Assembly: GCF_008065115.1 (NCBI RefSeq) | Contig: NZ_CP042913.1 | Span: forward strand, 4,909,257 to 4,973,256 | Direction of reading: 5' to 3' | Length of the DNA: 64,000 nucleotides | Source of the DNA: Bythopirellula goksoeyrii | GTDB taxonomy: Bacteria > Planctomycetota > Planctomycetia > Pirellulales > Lacipirellulaceae | Part shown: positions 34,859 to 57,993 of the stretch, in pieces | How positions within the stretch are numbered: the stretch's first letter is position 1 | How the letters are laid out: every line of letters starts with the position of its first letter | Program-made: the position numbers and the translations under genes | The notes under the pieces: generated by a model | What the model was told of the DNA's origin: nothing | Database searches by the model: none | Seen by the model: only the letters and a program-made list of their open reading frames with translations

Positions 34859-35500
34859 CTACTTGATCGGGAGGCGCACAATCAAGCCAATCATACACAT
34901 GCCTGCCAGTGCGAGAGCGCTAGGCTCGGGACAAATGAAATCGAACGGATAGCTTTCAAACCGCGAACCGTCCTGAAGACCCACACTAAAAGAAAAACGC
35001 CAACTCAACGAGTCCTGTGGGCCGAATGTCAACTGTGCAAACTTGAAATTGCTTTGAGCTCCATTGTTGTCTAAGTCAAACCAAGCACTGTTCGGAGTCA
35101 AAAAAGGAGCATGATAATCATCAGCACCTATTGGAACTGTGTCGCCAGGAGTGGTGATCCAAGAATCCGCTGTTATGGACGGGAAAAACGGCGTTAATAC
35201 TTCATTTGGAGGACTTACGTCTGAAGACATTGGGGCTTGAAACAACCTCTCTGCTGGCGAAACAATGACATTGTGAATCCCCACGATGTCAAAATCAGTC
35301 GTCACAAAGAACTCAAAAACGGTTCCTCCGGCAGGTGCGGGATCAACCATAGCCCCAGCCTCTTCCGCAGTTACAGGTCGCGACGAGTAACAGGACCACA
35401 CATGACCATTAGATGTACAGGAGTGAATACCGGCAGAGGATTCAGGAATTAAAAAGAGAACGTAGGAAATCAGAAAAACGAGACAAGCAGTCTTACTCAT
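34859..35500 (-). CDS. PEP-CTERM exported protein of unknown function
   Basis: 213 residues from ATG 35500, which opens a signal peptide (M-S-K-T-A-C-L-V-F, hydrophobic, cut near S-S-A-G). A longer frame starts 16 codons earlier but lacks the signal. The middle has Asp/Asn-rich loops and an F-F-V-T-T-D-F-D segment. The C-terminus is C-P-E-P-S-A then a hydrophobic stretch and a short basic end, the sorting tail processed by exosortase. No exosortase gene is in the window. The role is unknown; such proteins are usually surface or biofilm matrix components. Two Cys near residues 44-53 could form a disulfide. Confidence 0.8.
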   Translation of the reverse strand: MSKTACLVFLISYVLFLIPESSAGIHSCTSNGHVWSCYSSRPVTAEEAGAMVDPAPAGGTVFEFFVTTDFDIVGIHNVIVSPAERLFQAPMSSDVSPPNEVLTPFFPSITADSWITTPGDTVPIGADDYHAPFLTPNSAWFDLDNNGAQSNFKFAQLTFGPQDSLSWRFSFSVGLQDGSRFESYPFDFICPEPSALALAGMCMIGLIVRLPIK

Positions 35501-35646: not shown

Positions 35647-35949
35647 TTATTGCGTTAATGATCCATCTGCCAATTCCCACGTATCGAGCTGCTTGTCGGC
35701 AATCCATGGACCAGCCGTGTCGCCGAACCATTTGAAGTGATCAGAGGCGGTGTGAACGTCGAAAGCGGCGCGGTCGTCGTATTGTTCGTAAATCAAAACT
35801 CGCGTGTCGTTATCGGGATCAAAACTAACATCAAATCGGCGGCATCCTTCTTCTTTCGTCAGCGAGTTGTTTGCATGCTTTAGCACAGTTTTCCTAAAGG
35901 AGGCTACTTGCTGGGGATCGATTGACAAATACACGGTTACGACAAACAT
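35647..35949 (-). CDS. Antibiotic-biosynthesis-monooxygenase-fold protein
   Basis: 100 residues, the normal size of a single ABM domain. The N-terminal strand is M-F-V-V-T-V-Y-L, then E-E-G-C-R-R-F-D-V near residue 35-43, Y-E-Q-Y-D-D-R-A-A-F near 54-63, and H-F-K-W near 71-74. These are the pattern of YgiN-type quinol monooxygenases and related small enzymes, which need no cofactor. It lies about 74 bp downstream of the ATP-grasp gene on the same strand, so it may be transcribed with the three-gene operon, or from its own promoter. Confidence 0.88.
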   Translation of the reverse strand: MFVVTVYLSIDPQQVASFRKTVLKHANNSLTKEEGCRRFDVSFDPDNDTRVLIYEQYDDRAAFDVHTASDHFKWFGDTAGPWIADKQLDTWELADGSLTQ

Positions 35950-36023: not shown

Positions 36024-37070
36024 CTACAGCGACGCCATATCCACGTTGTTAAAGTTGCGTTGATAGTGACCCATGTATTGCACTTTGCGTTCCAGGGCTT
36101 CAATCACTGGGGTGGTGAAGTTCACATTTTCAAAGCTTTGAGCACTTCCTAAACCGCCGGGGCTGAACACGTTGATCTCCATCAGTTTGTCGCCCACGAT
36201 GTCGAGGCCGACAAAGAACATGCCGTCCGCCACTAACTTGGGACGCACGATCTCTGCGATTCGCAACGCCTTATCGTCAACGATTGCCTGTGCCTTCTTA
36301 CCACCAGCATGAATATTGCTGCGGATATCGTCGCCGGAACGAACCCGGCGAAACGCGGCGTACTTGCCTTTGTAGCGCAGAGGCTGCCCATTCATCATGA
36401 ATAATCGCATATCTCCCTCGGCGGCAAGAGGCAAGTATTGCTGTGCGACAACATAACCATCGCGAGAAATCGACTCGATCATTTGATTGAGGTTTCCAAG
36501 TTGATCGCCGACAATTCGAAAGACCCCCTGCCCTCCCGAACCTTGTAAGGGTTTGATCACAACATCGTTGGAATGTTTGCGAGCGAACTCTTTGATCTCA
36601 TCACGATCTCGCGTGATGAGCGTGTCAGGCCTCACTTCCTCGGGAAACAACTGGAAATACATCTTGTTGATGGCATTGTTGAGACCCTCCGGATCATTGA
36701 GCACAATCACACCCCGACGCATGGCCGCCCGTCCAAACACGATCCCCGCCTGCTGGGCCCAGCTGCGACGACCCAGATCTTGCGAAGGGTCATTTCGCAA
36801 CATCAGGATATCCAAATCGTCCACTGTAATCCGCTGGGCTTTACCGCGCGGACCGCGCAGATCGTGTAGAAATGTCTTTGTAGATTTGTACTTCGAACCT
36901 GGAGCAGATCGAGCTCTGGCGCGTACGTAGTCATCAGGGTCAAAGGCAAAATCGCCTGTGCCAATCAACCAGGCTTCATGCCCCCTATTGACAGCGGCCA
37001 TGGCGAGACGCGTAGTTGTGTAGCCTTCTTCTTCGGTAGCAACATCATTTACGACAAATCCAATACGCAT
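36024..37070 (-). CDS. GshB-like ATP-grasp ligase
   Basis: 348 residues. The N-terminal third begins M-R-I-G-F-V-V-N-D-V, as in glutathione synthase (GshB) relatives. The ATP-grasp core has V-I-K-P-L-Q-G-S-G-G-Q-G-V (phosphate loop), an R-L-F-M segment, and E-I-N-V-F-S-P-G-G (the Mg-binding E-x-N). Enzymes of this fold join a carboxylate to an amine using ATP. The partner genes are an N-formylglutamate amidohydrolase-like protein and a DUF1704 metallopeptidase, so the ligase may build a peptide or amide that the others trim. It begins 12 bp after the DUF1704 stop. It is not an ordinary glutathione synthase by context: no gshA is nearby. Confidence 0.88.
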   Translation of the reverse strand: MRIGFVVNDVATEEEGYTTTRLAMAAVNRGHEAWLIGTGDFAFDPDDYVRARARSAPGSKYKSTKTFLHDLRGPRGKAQRITVDDLDILMLRNDPSQDLGRRSWAQQAGIVFGRAAMRRGVIVLNDPEGLNNAINKMYFQLFPEEVRPDTLITRDRDEIKEFARKHSNDVVIKPLQGSGGQGVFRIVGDQLGNLNQMIESISRDGYVVAQQYLPLAAEGDMRLFMMNGQPLRYKGKYAAFRRVRSGDDIRSNIHAGGKKAQAIVDDKALRIAEIVRPKLVADGMFFVGLDIVGDKLMEINVFSPGGLGSAQSFENVNFTTPVIEALERKVQYMGHYQRNFNNVDMASL

Positions 37071-37082
37071 ACAAATTCCTTG

Positions 37083-39005
37083 TTAAGTTTTACCTTTGAT
37101 CAATTCTAGCACAGACATTCCCGCCCCTAGCTTTTCTAGTCTTCCCTGTACTCCAGGCATCTGTAAATACCGAGGGAGCAAAGCGGGAGGTTCAATCATC
37201 CGGCGGTGCAATAATTCGCGGATGAACCGTATATGTTCGCTGGCAATCTTGCCCACGAACAGGGGGTCCAGCTTGCCACCATCACCCAAGTAGTCCAATA
37301 TCTCAACTAATCCACGCAAATACACGGCATCTTTGGTAAAACCGCCCCCGCGAAAAATCCGCATCGTGATGGTATAGGCCGTCCTCCGGCGAAAGCCGTA
37401 CTGCTTGGTTAAAGTGCGAAACGTCTCCACAAAGTTTGCTCCCGAGAGTAACATCTGCACGGCCACCACGCGGGCTGCCAGCAGTCGCAGTCGTGGCCTG
37501 CTAAGTCCACCAACCAAATACTCGGTCAGCACAGCTATGCCCTCTTGCAATGAATCGTAGCCAGCGAGCCCCGTATGCAGAAGCTGAAAAGGTTCTACTA
37601 ATCCGTTGTAGTAGGTCAGCAGATGCGTACCAACTTCGTGTTGCAGCAGGGCTTCCACACGGCTATGTGGGATACGCGTCTCACGTCCGATCAAGAGGTG
37701 CCCATCAGAACACATAAGTCCTGAGTACATGTCTTCGCGTACAATCGCTTCGGCTGCAAACTCGGGTAGCTGTGCGCGGTAGTATTCTATTTCTTGCGTG
37801 GCTCGCTCGGCAAATGCAAAAGCATCTAGCTCGCGTTTGCTACGATCCTCTCCACTGCGAGGGCTGATGTGTTCGAGTAGGTTGCGAGCCAGGACAAGCA
37901 AATCCGTATTGATTTCGCCATAGACTTGTCGACTTCCGAGCACGAAACGCTTGGTGCCGATATCACAAAGCATCGTAATTTTTCGATCGAGTTCATCCTG
38001 CCGCTGGTGGAAGAGTTCACCAAGAGTGGGGTCTTCAATACTTCCGGTAGGAATCGAAAACAATTGCCGTTTCAACTCAGTGGCATCGATCGATAAGGGG
38101 CGATAGTAATAGCGTGGCTCACTTTCGAATCGTCCCCGCTTAAACTCCTCCCAGGCCGCATCCGCATTCACAGGGGTAACTTGCAACAGGAAACTGAAGC
38201 TCTTGCTGATTTCATTGAGTCGACGATCAATCATCTTGACTGACTTGAAAATGGTTCGTCGGCCAAGCGAGTAAAAATGCTCCGGGGTTGTATTCGTATG
38301 TGTCTTGGAGAAGGTAAAGAAGGCTTGTTTGAGTGCCCGTCCGATACTTCTCTTAAGGGATCGGATTACGGCGGGATAGAGTTCGCCAGTTTGCGGATTG
38401 CGGTAGATGGGTCGCACACTAAGTCCAATAACTTCACTGCCCCATTGCCGCAGGCTGTTGGAGGTGAGCAATGTAGTCAGACTCCCAGCGAATGCGTCGG
38501 AACTAGTGTCGACATGGACGGTTGAATGTTGCTTGAGATAGGTCACACGCTCAAGCTGGCGGCGAAGGGTTTCTATCGTGCGCATCGGTGCGTTGGGGCC
38601 ACGGGCGACAATCGAGAAGTTCGGTCTTAGCTCGGTGGGCTCCATCTCACTTTCAGCAAACGCCGCTTGGACGTCGCTGTCGGCGGAAGACCAGATTTCC
38701 ACGATTAAGAATCCATTGAATCGATTACGAAGAGTCTTCACGATGGTCTCAACGAGTGGACCGATCTCCTTTTTCGTCGCACTCTGAGGGACCACTAGGT
38801 ACGCTGCTTCACCCTGCACCAAGGCACGGGTCCCCAGATCATTGTGAGGTGGTTCGCGATAGACACACAAAAATGGGAGTGGCCGATCCATGTAGATCAT
38901 CCCCCCCTCAGGCAGTTCAGTCCTCACGGACTGCCCTGCCTCGAGTCGCTTTCGGACTTCCTGAATATCTCCCTTGGTTAACGGCAAGTTGGGTGCTTGA
39001 GTCAC
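37083..39005 (-). CDS. DUF1704/QEGLA metallopeptidase (MATCAP-related)
   Basis: 640 residues. The zinc site is H456-E-V-G-T-H461 with the third ligand E488 in L-Q-E-G-I-A-V, the 'QEGLA' motif after which this family is named. The same motif architecture occurs in eukaryotic MATCAP, a tyrosine carboxypeptidase that removes C-terminal residues from tubulin. In bacteria the proteins were called 'flavohaemoglobin expression-modulating QEGLA motif protein', a label without much support. The N-terminal 300 residues are a separate helical region. The gene overlaps the upstream amidohydrolase-like gene by four bases (ATGA) and is followed 12 bp later by the ATP-grasp gene, so the three are one operon. 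I infer a carboxypeptidase, target unknown. Confidence 0.9.
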   Translation of the reverse strand: MTQAPNLPLTKGDIQEVRKRLEAGQSVRTELPEGGMIYMDRPLPFLCVYREPPHNDLGTRALVQGEAAYLVVPQSATKKEIGPLVETIVKTLRNRFNGFLIVEIWSSADSDVQAAFAESEMEPTELRPNFSIVARGPNAPMRTIETLRRQLERVTYLKQHSTVHVDTSSDAFAGSLTTLLTSNSLRQWGSEVIGLSVRPIYRNPQTGELYPAVIRSLKRSIGRALKQAFFTFSKTHTNTTPEHFYSLGRRTIFKSVKMIDRRLNEISKSFSFLLQVTPVNADAAWEEFKRGRFESEPRYYYRPLSIDATELKRQLFSIPTGSIEDPTLGELFHQRQDELDRKITMLCDIGTKRFVLGSRQVYGEINTDLLVLARNLLEHISPRSGEDRSKRELDAFAFAERATQEIEYYRAQLPEFAAEAIVREDMYSGLMCSDGHLLIGRETRIPHSRVEALLQHEVGTHLLTYYNGLVEPFQLLHTGLAGYDSLQEGIAVLTEYLVGGLSRPRLRLLAARVVAVQMLLSGANFVETFRTLTKQYGFRRRTAYTITMRIFRGGGFTKDAVYLRGLVEILDYLGDGGKLDPLFVGKIASEHIRFIRELLHRRMIEPPALLPRYLQMPGVQGRLEKLGAGMSVLELIKGKT

Positions 39006-39799
39006 AGCTTAGCCAATTCCTCTCGCACTCCAGGGAGTGTCGACTCCAATGCCGACTTGATGGCGCCAACCGTTTCTTCCTCAGCGACGCCAGTCCACTC
39101 ATCCATAAAAAACTTCTTAAACTCAATCGACAACACACATACCGAGTCTGGATAGTGCTCGTGGATCCATTTTCCGAAGTTGCCGCCGCGAAACTTTACG
39201 TTCTCACGTACATCAAGTCGACCACCAGGGAAATCGAACTCCTGTAGATCTTCAAGAAATCGATCAACCACAACTGCCCAGCGGGAACGATCCATCGTGC
39301 CGGTACCCAGATTCACCTGAGGATTGAGAGAAGGGTCGTCATATGGAGCATCTGGGCCAGCACGGTGATGGTTGTAAGTATGCAGATCGTAGACGACAGC
39401 GCGACCCTCGCGTTTCACCGTATTGTCGAGCAATTGGCCCACTGCAGAGTAAAACTGATCGTATTCCTCCAAAGACCGCTCCAATAGATCGGGCGGCAAA
39501 GGTTCGTGCCAAACTTTGAGTCCCCAGGCATCCTCGGGCACCTGATAGACCGCCTTCTCCCGGGGACGATTGAGATCAACCTCGAACCGAGATCGTTTTC
39601 CTATAATGCGTGAAGGTGCGACGTTTGCCCAAACAGAGGTATGTGGATCTTCTTCGTGCAGCCGATCAGCCTCCGAAAGCGCAATCAAGCTCAATAGCTC
39701 CTCACGCACGGCATGGCCGTCGTGTATCGCCGCTGCAATGATCGGTCCACTTCCTTCGACAATTTCCCAGGCGTTTTGAGTTTTAATTGCTATTTCCAC
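39002..39799 (-). CDS. N-formylglutamate amidohydrolase family protein
   Basis: 265 residues. The family's metal-binding motif H26-D-G-H29 is present near the N-terminus, then D-L-N-R-P-R-E near residue 73 and V-Y-D-L-H-T-Y-N-H-H near 140-149. FGases hydrolyse N-formyl-glutamate in histidine degradation, but no other hut genes are here, and this subgroup is often found in operons with DUF1704 proteins and ATP-grasp ligases. The last codons overlap the next gene by four bases, so translation is coupled. I infer a role in hydrolysing an amide made or exposed by the ATP-grasp/DUF1704 partners. Confidence 0.85.
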   Translation of the reverse strand: MEIAIKTQNAWEIVEGSGPIIAAAIHDGHAVREELLSLIALSEADRLHEEDPHTSVWANVAPSRIIGKRSRFEVDLNRPREKAVYQVPEDAWGLKVWHEPLPPDLLERSLEEYDQFYSAVGQLLDNTVKREGRAVVYDLHTYNHHRAGPDAPYDDPSLNPQVNLGTGTMDRSRWAVVVDRFLEDLQEFDFPGGRLDVRENVKFRGGNFGKWIHEHYPDSVCVLSIEFKKFFMDEWTGVAEEETVGAIKSALESTLPGVREELAKL

Positions 39800-56883: not shown

Positions 56884-57993
56884 CTAACCTTCTTCTCTTT
56901 GCTTCCGACTTGTAGTGCTCGCTCCTCCAAAGCTGATCCAGCCTTTGCGCCAGAAATAGATGAGCATCCCTGCGGCGGTGCCGAGCATAGTGATCCACAC
57001 CGCGGGGTAAGCCCATTTGACATGCAATTCGGGCATGTGTTCAAAATTCATACCGTAGATGCCCGCCAGAAAGGTTAGCGGGATAAAAATGCTGGCCATG
57101 ATCGTGAGCACTTTCATCACTTCGTTCGTACGATTGGCAATCGACGAAAGATAGGTGTTCATGAGTCCCGTGACCATTTCTCGATACATCTCGGCAACCT
57201 CCGAGGTCTGCACGCAATGGTCGTAGGTATCGCGCAAGTAGATCTGCACTTCCGAGCTTATAGCGGGATGATCGCCCCGGACCATGGTGTTGACCGCCTC
57301 GCGCTGAGGCCAGATTCCGCGGCGCAAGTTTATTAGTCGGTTTTTGATTTGATTAAGTTCGATCAATAAGTCCGGTGTTGGATCAGTGACGACGACATCT
57401 TCGAGTTCTTCAAGATGCTCGCCGATTGATTCCAAGACGGGATAGTAGCCGTCAATGATGGTGTCGGCGATTGCATAGGCGAGAAAATCAGCCCGGTGCT
57501 GGCGGATAACACCTTTTCCGGAGCGAATACGGCGGCGAACGGGGTCCAACACATCGCCATAGCGTTCCTGAAAAGTAAGCACGTAATTCTTACTCAACAC
57601 GATGCTTACTTGTTCCATGTCGATTTCACCCGGACCGTCAACACGAACCATTCGCACCACCGTCAACAGCTGGTCGCCATAAGCTTCAGTTTTTGGTCGT
57701 TGCGGAATGTTAACCACGTCTTCCAGTAGCAACGGATGCAGCTTAAACAGATCGCCAATGCTTTGAATAAGAGCCTTATCACCATACCCTTGAATATCGA
57801 TCCAGGTGACTGCCTCCTCGTCGAACGCTGCTTTGAGTTCGTCGACTTCGCTGACGTCGGATTCAGTGACGTCCTCCGCTCGGTAGCGGATCATATAAAT
57901 CCTAGGGGTGGGCGCTTCCTTGGGGATAACAAGCGTACCCGGTCGGGCACCGCTCTGAGGGTGGCGTTTGTCAAAAATCGCGGAAAACATCAT
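56884..57993 (-). CDS. corA: CorA-type magnesium/cobalt channel
   Basis: 369 residues. The G314-M-N316 selectivity motif ends the first of two C-terminal membrane helices (F-I-P-L-T-F-L-A-G-I-Y-G-M-N), and a basic tail follows the second (W-R-K-G-W). The N-terminal 250 residues are the cytoplasmic helical funnel, including the P-L-L-L-E-D-V-V-N segment near residue 82, which is diagnostic for the family. CorA is a homopentameric channel for Mg2+ and also Co2+ and Ni2+. Start is ATG 57993. It stands alone, and no Mg riboswitch is visible upstream. Confidence 0.95.
   Translation of the reverse strand: MMFSAIFDKRHPQSGARPGTLVIPKEAPTPRIYMIRYRAEDVTESDVSEVDELKAAFDEEAVTWIDIQGYGDKALIQSIGDLFKLHPLLLEDVVNIPQRPKTEAYGDQLLTVVRMVRVDGPGEIDMEQVSIVLSKNYVLTFQERYGDVLDPVRRRIRSGKGVIRQHRADFLAYAIADTIIDGYYPVLESIGEHLEELEDVVVTDPTPDLLIELNQIKNRLINLRRGIWPQREAVNTMVRGDHPAISSEVQIYLRDTYDHCVQTSEVAEMYREMVTGLMNTYLSSIANRTNEVMKVLTIMASIFIPLTFLAGIYGMNFEHMPELHVKWAYPAVWITMLGTAAGMLIYFWRKGWISFGGASTTSRKQREEG

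Follow-up and report, generated by a model that had tools for sequence, protein, structure and literature searches.

Three genes lie head-to-tail on the minus strand of a 64-kb stretch of the Bythopirellula goksoeyrii genome (NZ_CP042913.1, positions 4,909,257 to 4,973,256), which was analysed at its full length and is called the window here. The first gene of the operon, at 39002..39799 (−), encodes a 265-aa amidohydrolase of the M14 fold that resembles N-formylglutamate amidohydrolase (FGase; PF05013). The second, at 37083..39005 (−), has a GTG start and encodes a two-domain MATCAP/QEGLA protein of 640 aa, with an N-terminal pseudo-FGase domain and a C-terminal MATCAP-type zinc peptidase domain. 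The third, at 36024..37070 (−), encodes a 348-aa ATP-grasp ligase of the glutathione-synthetase-like subfamily NF009110/PRK12458. In the list of open reading frames (ORFs), the FGase and MATCAP genes overlap by 4 bp and a gap of 12 bp separates the MATCAP and ligase genes, so that the ORF calls agree with the positions and spacing given in the initial annotation of this DNA. The FGase-like and MATCAP proteins scored 76.5 and 302.2 bits against PF05013 and PF08014 (cut-offs 28.9 and 27), respectively, and the ligase scored 171.9 and 40 bits against PF02955 and PF02951, respectively. Among the NCBIfam models, the MATCAP protein exceeded the cut-off of TIGR02421 (QEGLA; 357.5 vs. 338.65) and the ligase that of NF009110 (473.2 vs. 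408), which places it in this subfamily. The FGase-like protein had no NCBIfam match. Between positions 35500 and 40100, 5 promoter-like and 3 terminator-like matches were found, compared with 3.7 and 4.4 expected from shuffled sequence, respectively. Therefore, the bounds of the operon rest on spacing and conservation.

The trio is an overlooked module present in many bacterial phyla. Within Planctomycetota, 199 genomes were searched with profiles of the three families, and matches to MATCAP, FGase and the ligase subfamily (above its cut-off) were found in 38, 67 and 12 genomes, respectively. All 12 genomes with the ligase subfamily also held MATCAP and FGase matches. By the listed coordinates, 11 of these 12 genomes had MATCAP no more than 5 kb from such a ligase, and 11 had FGase no more than 5 kb from either of the two; in the exceptions, G177 and G132, the genes were split over contigs. 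The three families occur together in this phylum more than by chance. For the wider survey, a profile of 15 long MATCAP proteins was run against genome contigs, at least 572 relatives were confirmed, and the best 80 were kept. All three genes were present within the stretch in 66 of these 80 best-scoring loci. The coupling of a ligase with two hydrolases, as proposed initially, is therefore conserved, and the loss of a partner in most genomes, which would have spoken against it, was not seen. The record titles of the related loci represent about 14 phyla and name Planctomycetota, Poribacteria, Calditrichaeota, classes of Proteobacteria, Gemmatimonadota, Verrucomicrobia, Bacteroidetes, Acidobacteria, Myxococcales/Deltaproteobacteria, Campylobacterales, Ignavibacteria, Kiritimatiellae, Balneolaceae and Actinobacteria. 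The simple order FGase–MATCAP–ligase was observed in 45 of the best 80 loci; the others had extra ligases, MATCAP–ligase pairs or other orders. At 39 of the 77 measured junctions, the MATCAP stop and the ligase start overlapped by 4 bp.

In strain Ak57 of Sinorhizobium meliloti, the trio lies on pSymA, where its genes bear the names N-formylglutamate amidohydrolase, QEGLA protein and glutathione synthase. A description of the operon as a unit was not found in the literature searched by family name, enzyme name and family accession; a 2009 survey of ATP-grasp amidoligases by Iyer and colleagues may mention it. COG3930 corresponds to the DUF1704 (MATCAP) family. A published table of specific genes places VV2_1203 (COG3930) next to VV2_1204 (glutathione synthetase) (PMC3091676). 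Glutathione synthase, N-formylglutamate amidohydrolase and the flavohemoglobin-expression QEGLA protein, which are named as separate families, are brought together here in one widespread module.

The genes were also found fused. Loci L049 (genome G036) and L203 (Photobacterium sp. GJ3) carry FGase and MATCAP in one ORF, with both parts above the Pfam cut-offs and the ligase gene directly preceding the fusion. The FGase motifs AIHxG, EEDP, DLNR and DIHSYN are retained in both. No more FGase–MATCAP fusions were found in the one other genome searched from the taxonomic order of G036 (2 genomes in total). In a Myxococcales record (L147), FGase and the ligase form a single ORF of 654 aa. A similar FGase–MATCAP fusion was observed in Vibrio sp. 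HDW18 (L202, 7311-9302), where DMYAYN replaces DIHSYN and the histidine of this motif is lost; a ligase was neither annotated nor detected by profile within the 17-kb stretch of this locus.

The MATCAP-type peptidase domain, encoded by 37086..38189 (−) (approximately residues 273-640), contains H456-E457-V-G-T-H461 and Q487-E488-G. H456, E457, H461, N467, Q487 and E488 were invariant in all 72 aligned relatives, and G459 and T460 were kept in 71 and 69 of them, respectively. The zinc set H456-E-V-G-T-H461/E488 recognised in the initial annotation was thus confirmed, and the HExxxH zinc motif with its third ligand in [EQ]EG is found in the window protein as in the 72 relatives. In the structure model (mean predicted local distance difference test score, pLDDT, 94.5), residues 273-640 were superimposed on human MATCAP (7z6s) over 295 residues (Z 24.3, 3.4 Å). 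Human MATCAP/TMCP enzymes (KIAA0895L, KIAA0895; PF08014) are tubulin-tail carboxypeptidases, and by the published motif description the window protein shares with them the homologous peptidase domain with HExxxH and the third ligand in [EQ]EG (PMC10499314). It differs from them in being bacterial, in having QEG where the tubulin enzymes have EEG, and in its extra N-terminal dead FGase-fold domain, usually encoded beside a ligase gene. By homology, the window protein is probably a peptidase and may be a carboxypeptidase, and the bacterial relatives of a tubulin-modifying enzyme gain a testable context.

The N-terminal domain is encoded by 38298..38912 (−). Residues 32-236 of the model, which approximately correspond to it, were superimposed on N-formylglutamate amidohydrolase 2q7s over 181 residues (Z 13.6, 3.4 Å), and hhalign matched the N-terminus of the MATCAP protein to the FGase of the same operon (E 1.8e-5, probability 77.9), with the register of the first part unsure as the match starts at FGase residue 71. 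The MATCAP profile also matched the S. meliloti FGase (E 8.7e-4) and did not match the Pararhizobium FGase at that limit. Within MATCAP residues 1-240, only one histidine column was found at the 40% limit (position 38, 63 of 72 sequences, Tyr in the window protein); therefore, the M14-type two-histidine metal site is gone. The previously unannotated N-terminal ~240 residues are, as modelled, a domain of the FGase/M14 fold without a metal site. A midpoint-rooted tree of MATCAP domains, built with 41 of the 109 long rows and containing one long branch, placed the three fusion-type rows next to the long type (98/83) and left the short forms outside. We infer an ancestral FGase–MATCAP fusion, the FGase half of which decayed where a separate FGase gene persisted. 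The dead FGase copy is a probable substrate- or partner-binding domain. Short MATCAP genes (~400-590 aa) without the FGase-like N-terminal domain were observed in L059-L077, mostly with no ligase or FGase nearby, and they form separate branches of the tree.

In the FGase-like protein, H26, E49-E50-D51, R71, N77-R78, D138, H140 and E226 were invariant in all 64 aligned sequences. These are candidate catalytic residues, kept here unlike in the MATCAP N-terminal domain. The model (mean pLDDT 95.5) was nearest to 2q7s (Z 24.0, 3.0 Å, 238 residues), followed by 2odf (Z 22.5) and then by M14 carboxypeptidases and poly-gamma-glutamate hydrolases (Z ~11-13); both this fold and the score above the cut-off place the protein in the PF05013 fold family. 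In M14 enzymes, an Asn-Arg pair binds carboxylates, and by analogy N77-R78 may play this role. FGase-family genes were also observed beside GCS2-type ligase genes in three Planctomycetota stretches (G137:C11:67978-69826, G150:C104:11860-13685 and G191:C1105:10612-12494), which, judged by family matches, is a second FGase-plus-ligase pairing.

Clustering of flank ORFs gave MscS, SLC12-like, CorA and CNNM proteins and sigma-54 regulators. With our own profiles of MscS, SLC12-like, CorA and CNNM, at least one of the four was found in 33 of 80 trio-set loci, compared with 1 of 40 random 20-kb stretches (Fisher p 2.5e-6). The MscS profile alone matched 26 genes in 20 loci within 841,453 flank bases, where 0.5 were expected from the Pfam background (37 MscS and 14 CorA matches in ~62.7 Mb of 10 genomes), and according to their record titles these 20 loci span about ten phyla. 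When 183 near neighbours were scanned with Pfam in sets of 93 and 90, PF00924 (MscS) matched 4 and 6 (total 10), CorA 3 and 2 (total 5), MgtE_N 3 and 2 (total 5), and AA_permease at least 6.

Expression data also relate to salt. In an RNA-seq study of Photobacterium damselae at 1% vs. 3% NaCl, the neighbouring locus tags A0J47_RS17020 ('GshB') and A0J47_RS17025 (QEGLA) were up 38.42- and 27.51-fold, respectively, and the authors placed GshB among low-salt functions related to virulence (PMC10308900). This pair may be the two-gene (fusion) form of the module, after the locus of Photobacterium sp. GJ3 (L203), and the published strong low-salt response of 'GshB' may really be that of this module.

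Based on gene order, conservation, fusions, predicted folds, the lost metal site, flank enrichment and low-salt induction, we tentatively favour, with somewhat less than even confidence, a cytosolic module, tied to osmotic or ionic conditions, for the synthesis and breakdown of a short amide-linked peptide of non-ribosomal origin or of a peptide modification. The ATP-grasp enzyme would ligate amino-acid-like building blocks with ATP, and the FGase-like M14-fold amidohydrolase and the MATCAP-type zincin would cleave amide bonds in the compound so formed. The dead FGase copy of the MATCAP protein, derived from the FGase–MATCAP fusion ancestor, would bind the substrate or a partner. All three enzymes would act on one compound, a small peptide with an osmotic or ionic role. 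One to three ligase paralogues were found per locus, and in the ligase tree the copies of multi-ligase loci fell mostly in separate deep paralogue clades rather than as recent copies, as expected for stepwise assembly; this tree carried long-branch warnings and placed the fusion-type ligases weakly (87/21), and it was used only for paralogue clades. The operon for the osmolyte N-acetylglutaminylglutamine amide (NAGGN) reportedly contains asparagine-synthetase-like, ATP-grasp/GNAT and M42 peptidase genes. It resembles the trio in outline, with an ATP-grasp ligase and a metallopeptidase in an osmotically regulated operon; however, its ligase and peptidase families are different and the trio has no amidotransferase gene. 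If true, our reading suggests a new peptide acting in bacterial salt and water stress.

Other functions were weighed against the peptide module, and two of them follow from existing names. The FGase-like protein could be a HutG enzyme of histidine breakdown lying by chance beside unrelated genes, given its PF05013 match, its fold nearest to N-formylglutamate amidohydrolase structures, and the urocanase matches in 7 of 13 genomes searched. These 13 genomes were chosen for ligase plus MATCAP and were also searched for GCS2 and Glu_cys_ligase. However, a urocanase match was lacking in the other 6, including the window genome (G000, 96% complete by its listing), and Hut-type N-formylglutamate breakdown is therefore unlikely there; a role of the amidohydrolase in histidine breakdown, which the initial annotation had raised as a possible objection, was not seen. 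The FGase-like protein of the window has the fold of 2q7s and 2odf and lies above the family cut-off, but it is only 16-17% identical to these enzymes and is tied to a ligase. Its operon recurs across phyla, and some loci have FGase joined to one or the other partner in a fusion. A HutG role is very improbable. The deposited annotation instead points to metabolism of glutathione or a similar thiol, with a second glutathione synthetase and with hydrolases for thiol turnover. The NF009110 subfamily is named glutathione synthetase, and among solved structures the GshB type is nearest to the window ligase, which matched E. coli GshB (1gsa) with 138 bits, has the same Pfam domains and shares matching ATP-grasp core residues. 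K136, K173, D290, E298 and N300 align with GshB lysines and acid/amide residues of known roles. Known glutathione synthetases join small peptides, and GCS2-family matches were found in 8 of the 13 genomes, among them the window genome, where the match lies elsewhere. Nevertheless, the window ligase scored below the cut-offs of the glutathione synthase equivalogs TIGR01380 (196.1 vs. 299.05 bits) and NF003573 (210.1 vs. 272), and it differs from GshB by a 5-residue insertion ahead of the R250 loop and by a conserved extension of the C-terminus that closes with N-x-x-M-A-T-L. A GCS2 match was lacking in 5 of the 13 genomes, including the single-contig G127, and none of the 13 had a Glu_cys_ligase match. 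FGase and MATCAP enzymes are not known to take part in the turnover of glutathione. A glutathione synthase role of the window ligase is not supported by these scores, and we consider thiol metabolism unlikely as the function of the trio.

The C-terminal extension of the ligase bears on another reading, in which the C-terminus of a protein is extended with residues by the ligase and shortened again by MATCAP, as in tubulin modification. The best candidate tail would be that of the ligase itself, which the MATCAP protein would dock or clip while the dead FGase domain acts as the reader. The last 7 residues, encoded by 36027..36047 (−), are conserved with the consensus N-x-x-M-A-T-L, and the window ligase ends in N-N-V-D-M-A-S-L (final 8 residues). 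Among 99 distinct complete tails from ligases of this type, 98 have N at −7, all 99 have K at −20, and 90 stop exactly at the final profile position; the last residue is L in 90 cases and I in 6 more. The exceptions include an orphan Ensifer ligase (L160) ending in His. Ligases adjacent to a short MATCAP (L055) or to FGase–MATCAP fusions (L049, L203) do not have this nearly fixed ending, nor do the other ligase relatives, which were listed separately. A clear MATCAP homologue as C-terminal domain and the action of human MATCAP/TMCP on tubulin tails (PMC10499314) also argue for a tail cycle. On the other hand, the conserved C-terminus may simply serve the active site of the ligase or a subunit contact, and the orphan ligases L048 and L056 retain it in stretches where no complete MATCAP gene was seen. 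The solved structure nearest to the ligase is a glutathione synthetase, and no conserved small-protein substrate was found beside the trio among the clustered flank ORFs. The recurrent clusters of at least 60 aa were mainly ion, regulator or transport genes or ORFs antisense to them, and clusters of ORFs of 20-75 aa spanned at most 4 loci, mostly near relatives. The peptide- or protein-tail cycle of the initial annotation stands in part: conservation supports that a ligase is coupled to two hydrolases, and the ligase tail leaves room for a tail version. The glutathione-synthetase-like ligase and the missing small ORF speak against it, and flanks and expression point to osmotic or ion adaptation. 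We regard a protein-tail cycle as improbable. A bolder form, which we think still less probable, would be a bacterial self-tailing cycle that predates the tubulin code. The dead M14 domain would recognise the nearly fixed tail of the ligase, the MATCAP domain and the ligase would trim or re-extend this tail, and its state, or a short peptide made by the system, would tune the response of the cell to changes in osmotic conditions and divalent ions.

Several points weigh against the osmotic peptide module that we favour. Its substrate, product and activity are hypothetical, and the P. damselae pair was assigned to it by analogy only; moreover, if the product were simply a protective solute accumulated at high salt, induction at low salt would fit poorly. 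From at least 572 loci, the 80 with the best scores were picked by likeness to long MATCAP, and they are not independent (for example, L095, L098 and L100 are near copies). A partner was missing in 14 of the 80, in 4 of which (L082, L102, L106 and L122) the stretch ends directly at MATCAP, and L089 has neither partner inside its stretch. Trio ligases do not form one clean group, with the relatives L209 and L210 among them and the fusion-type ligases outside. As for the flanks, the control stretches came from Planctomycetota only, the four profiles were built from trio neighbours, and CorA or CNNM genes were also present in 4 of 19 short-MATCAP loci that lack the trio. The trio of the window has no ion genes directly beside it, the sole one being a CorA gene 17 kb off.

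The other features of the window were also considered. The antibiotic-monooxygenase gene at 35647-35949 (−) (PF03992), suggested initially as a fourth member, was rejected, as it is not conserved with the trio: a search of the ORFs from 100 related stretches (some of which overlap) gave no homologue at E ≤ 0.01 or E ≤ 10, while the gene itself was recovered as a positive control. An anti-phage defence system was rejected as well, with 0 families of PADLOC-DB 2.0.0 matched by each of the three trio proteins at E ≤ 0.001. ARAGORN found no tRNA genes in the window. The CorA-type Mg2+ transporter gene is located at 56884-57993 (−), ~17 kb from the trio, and belongs to a family enriched beside trios elsewhere. 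On a Pseudoalteromonas plasmid (L204, 1233-8759), a short MATCAP gene adjoins betaine genes (a BCCT transporter gene, betA, betB and betI), which in this one case is another osmotic link.

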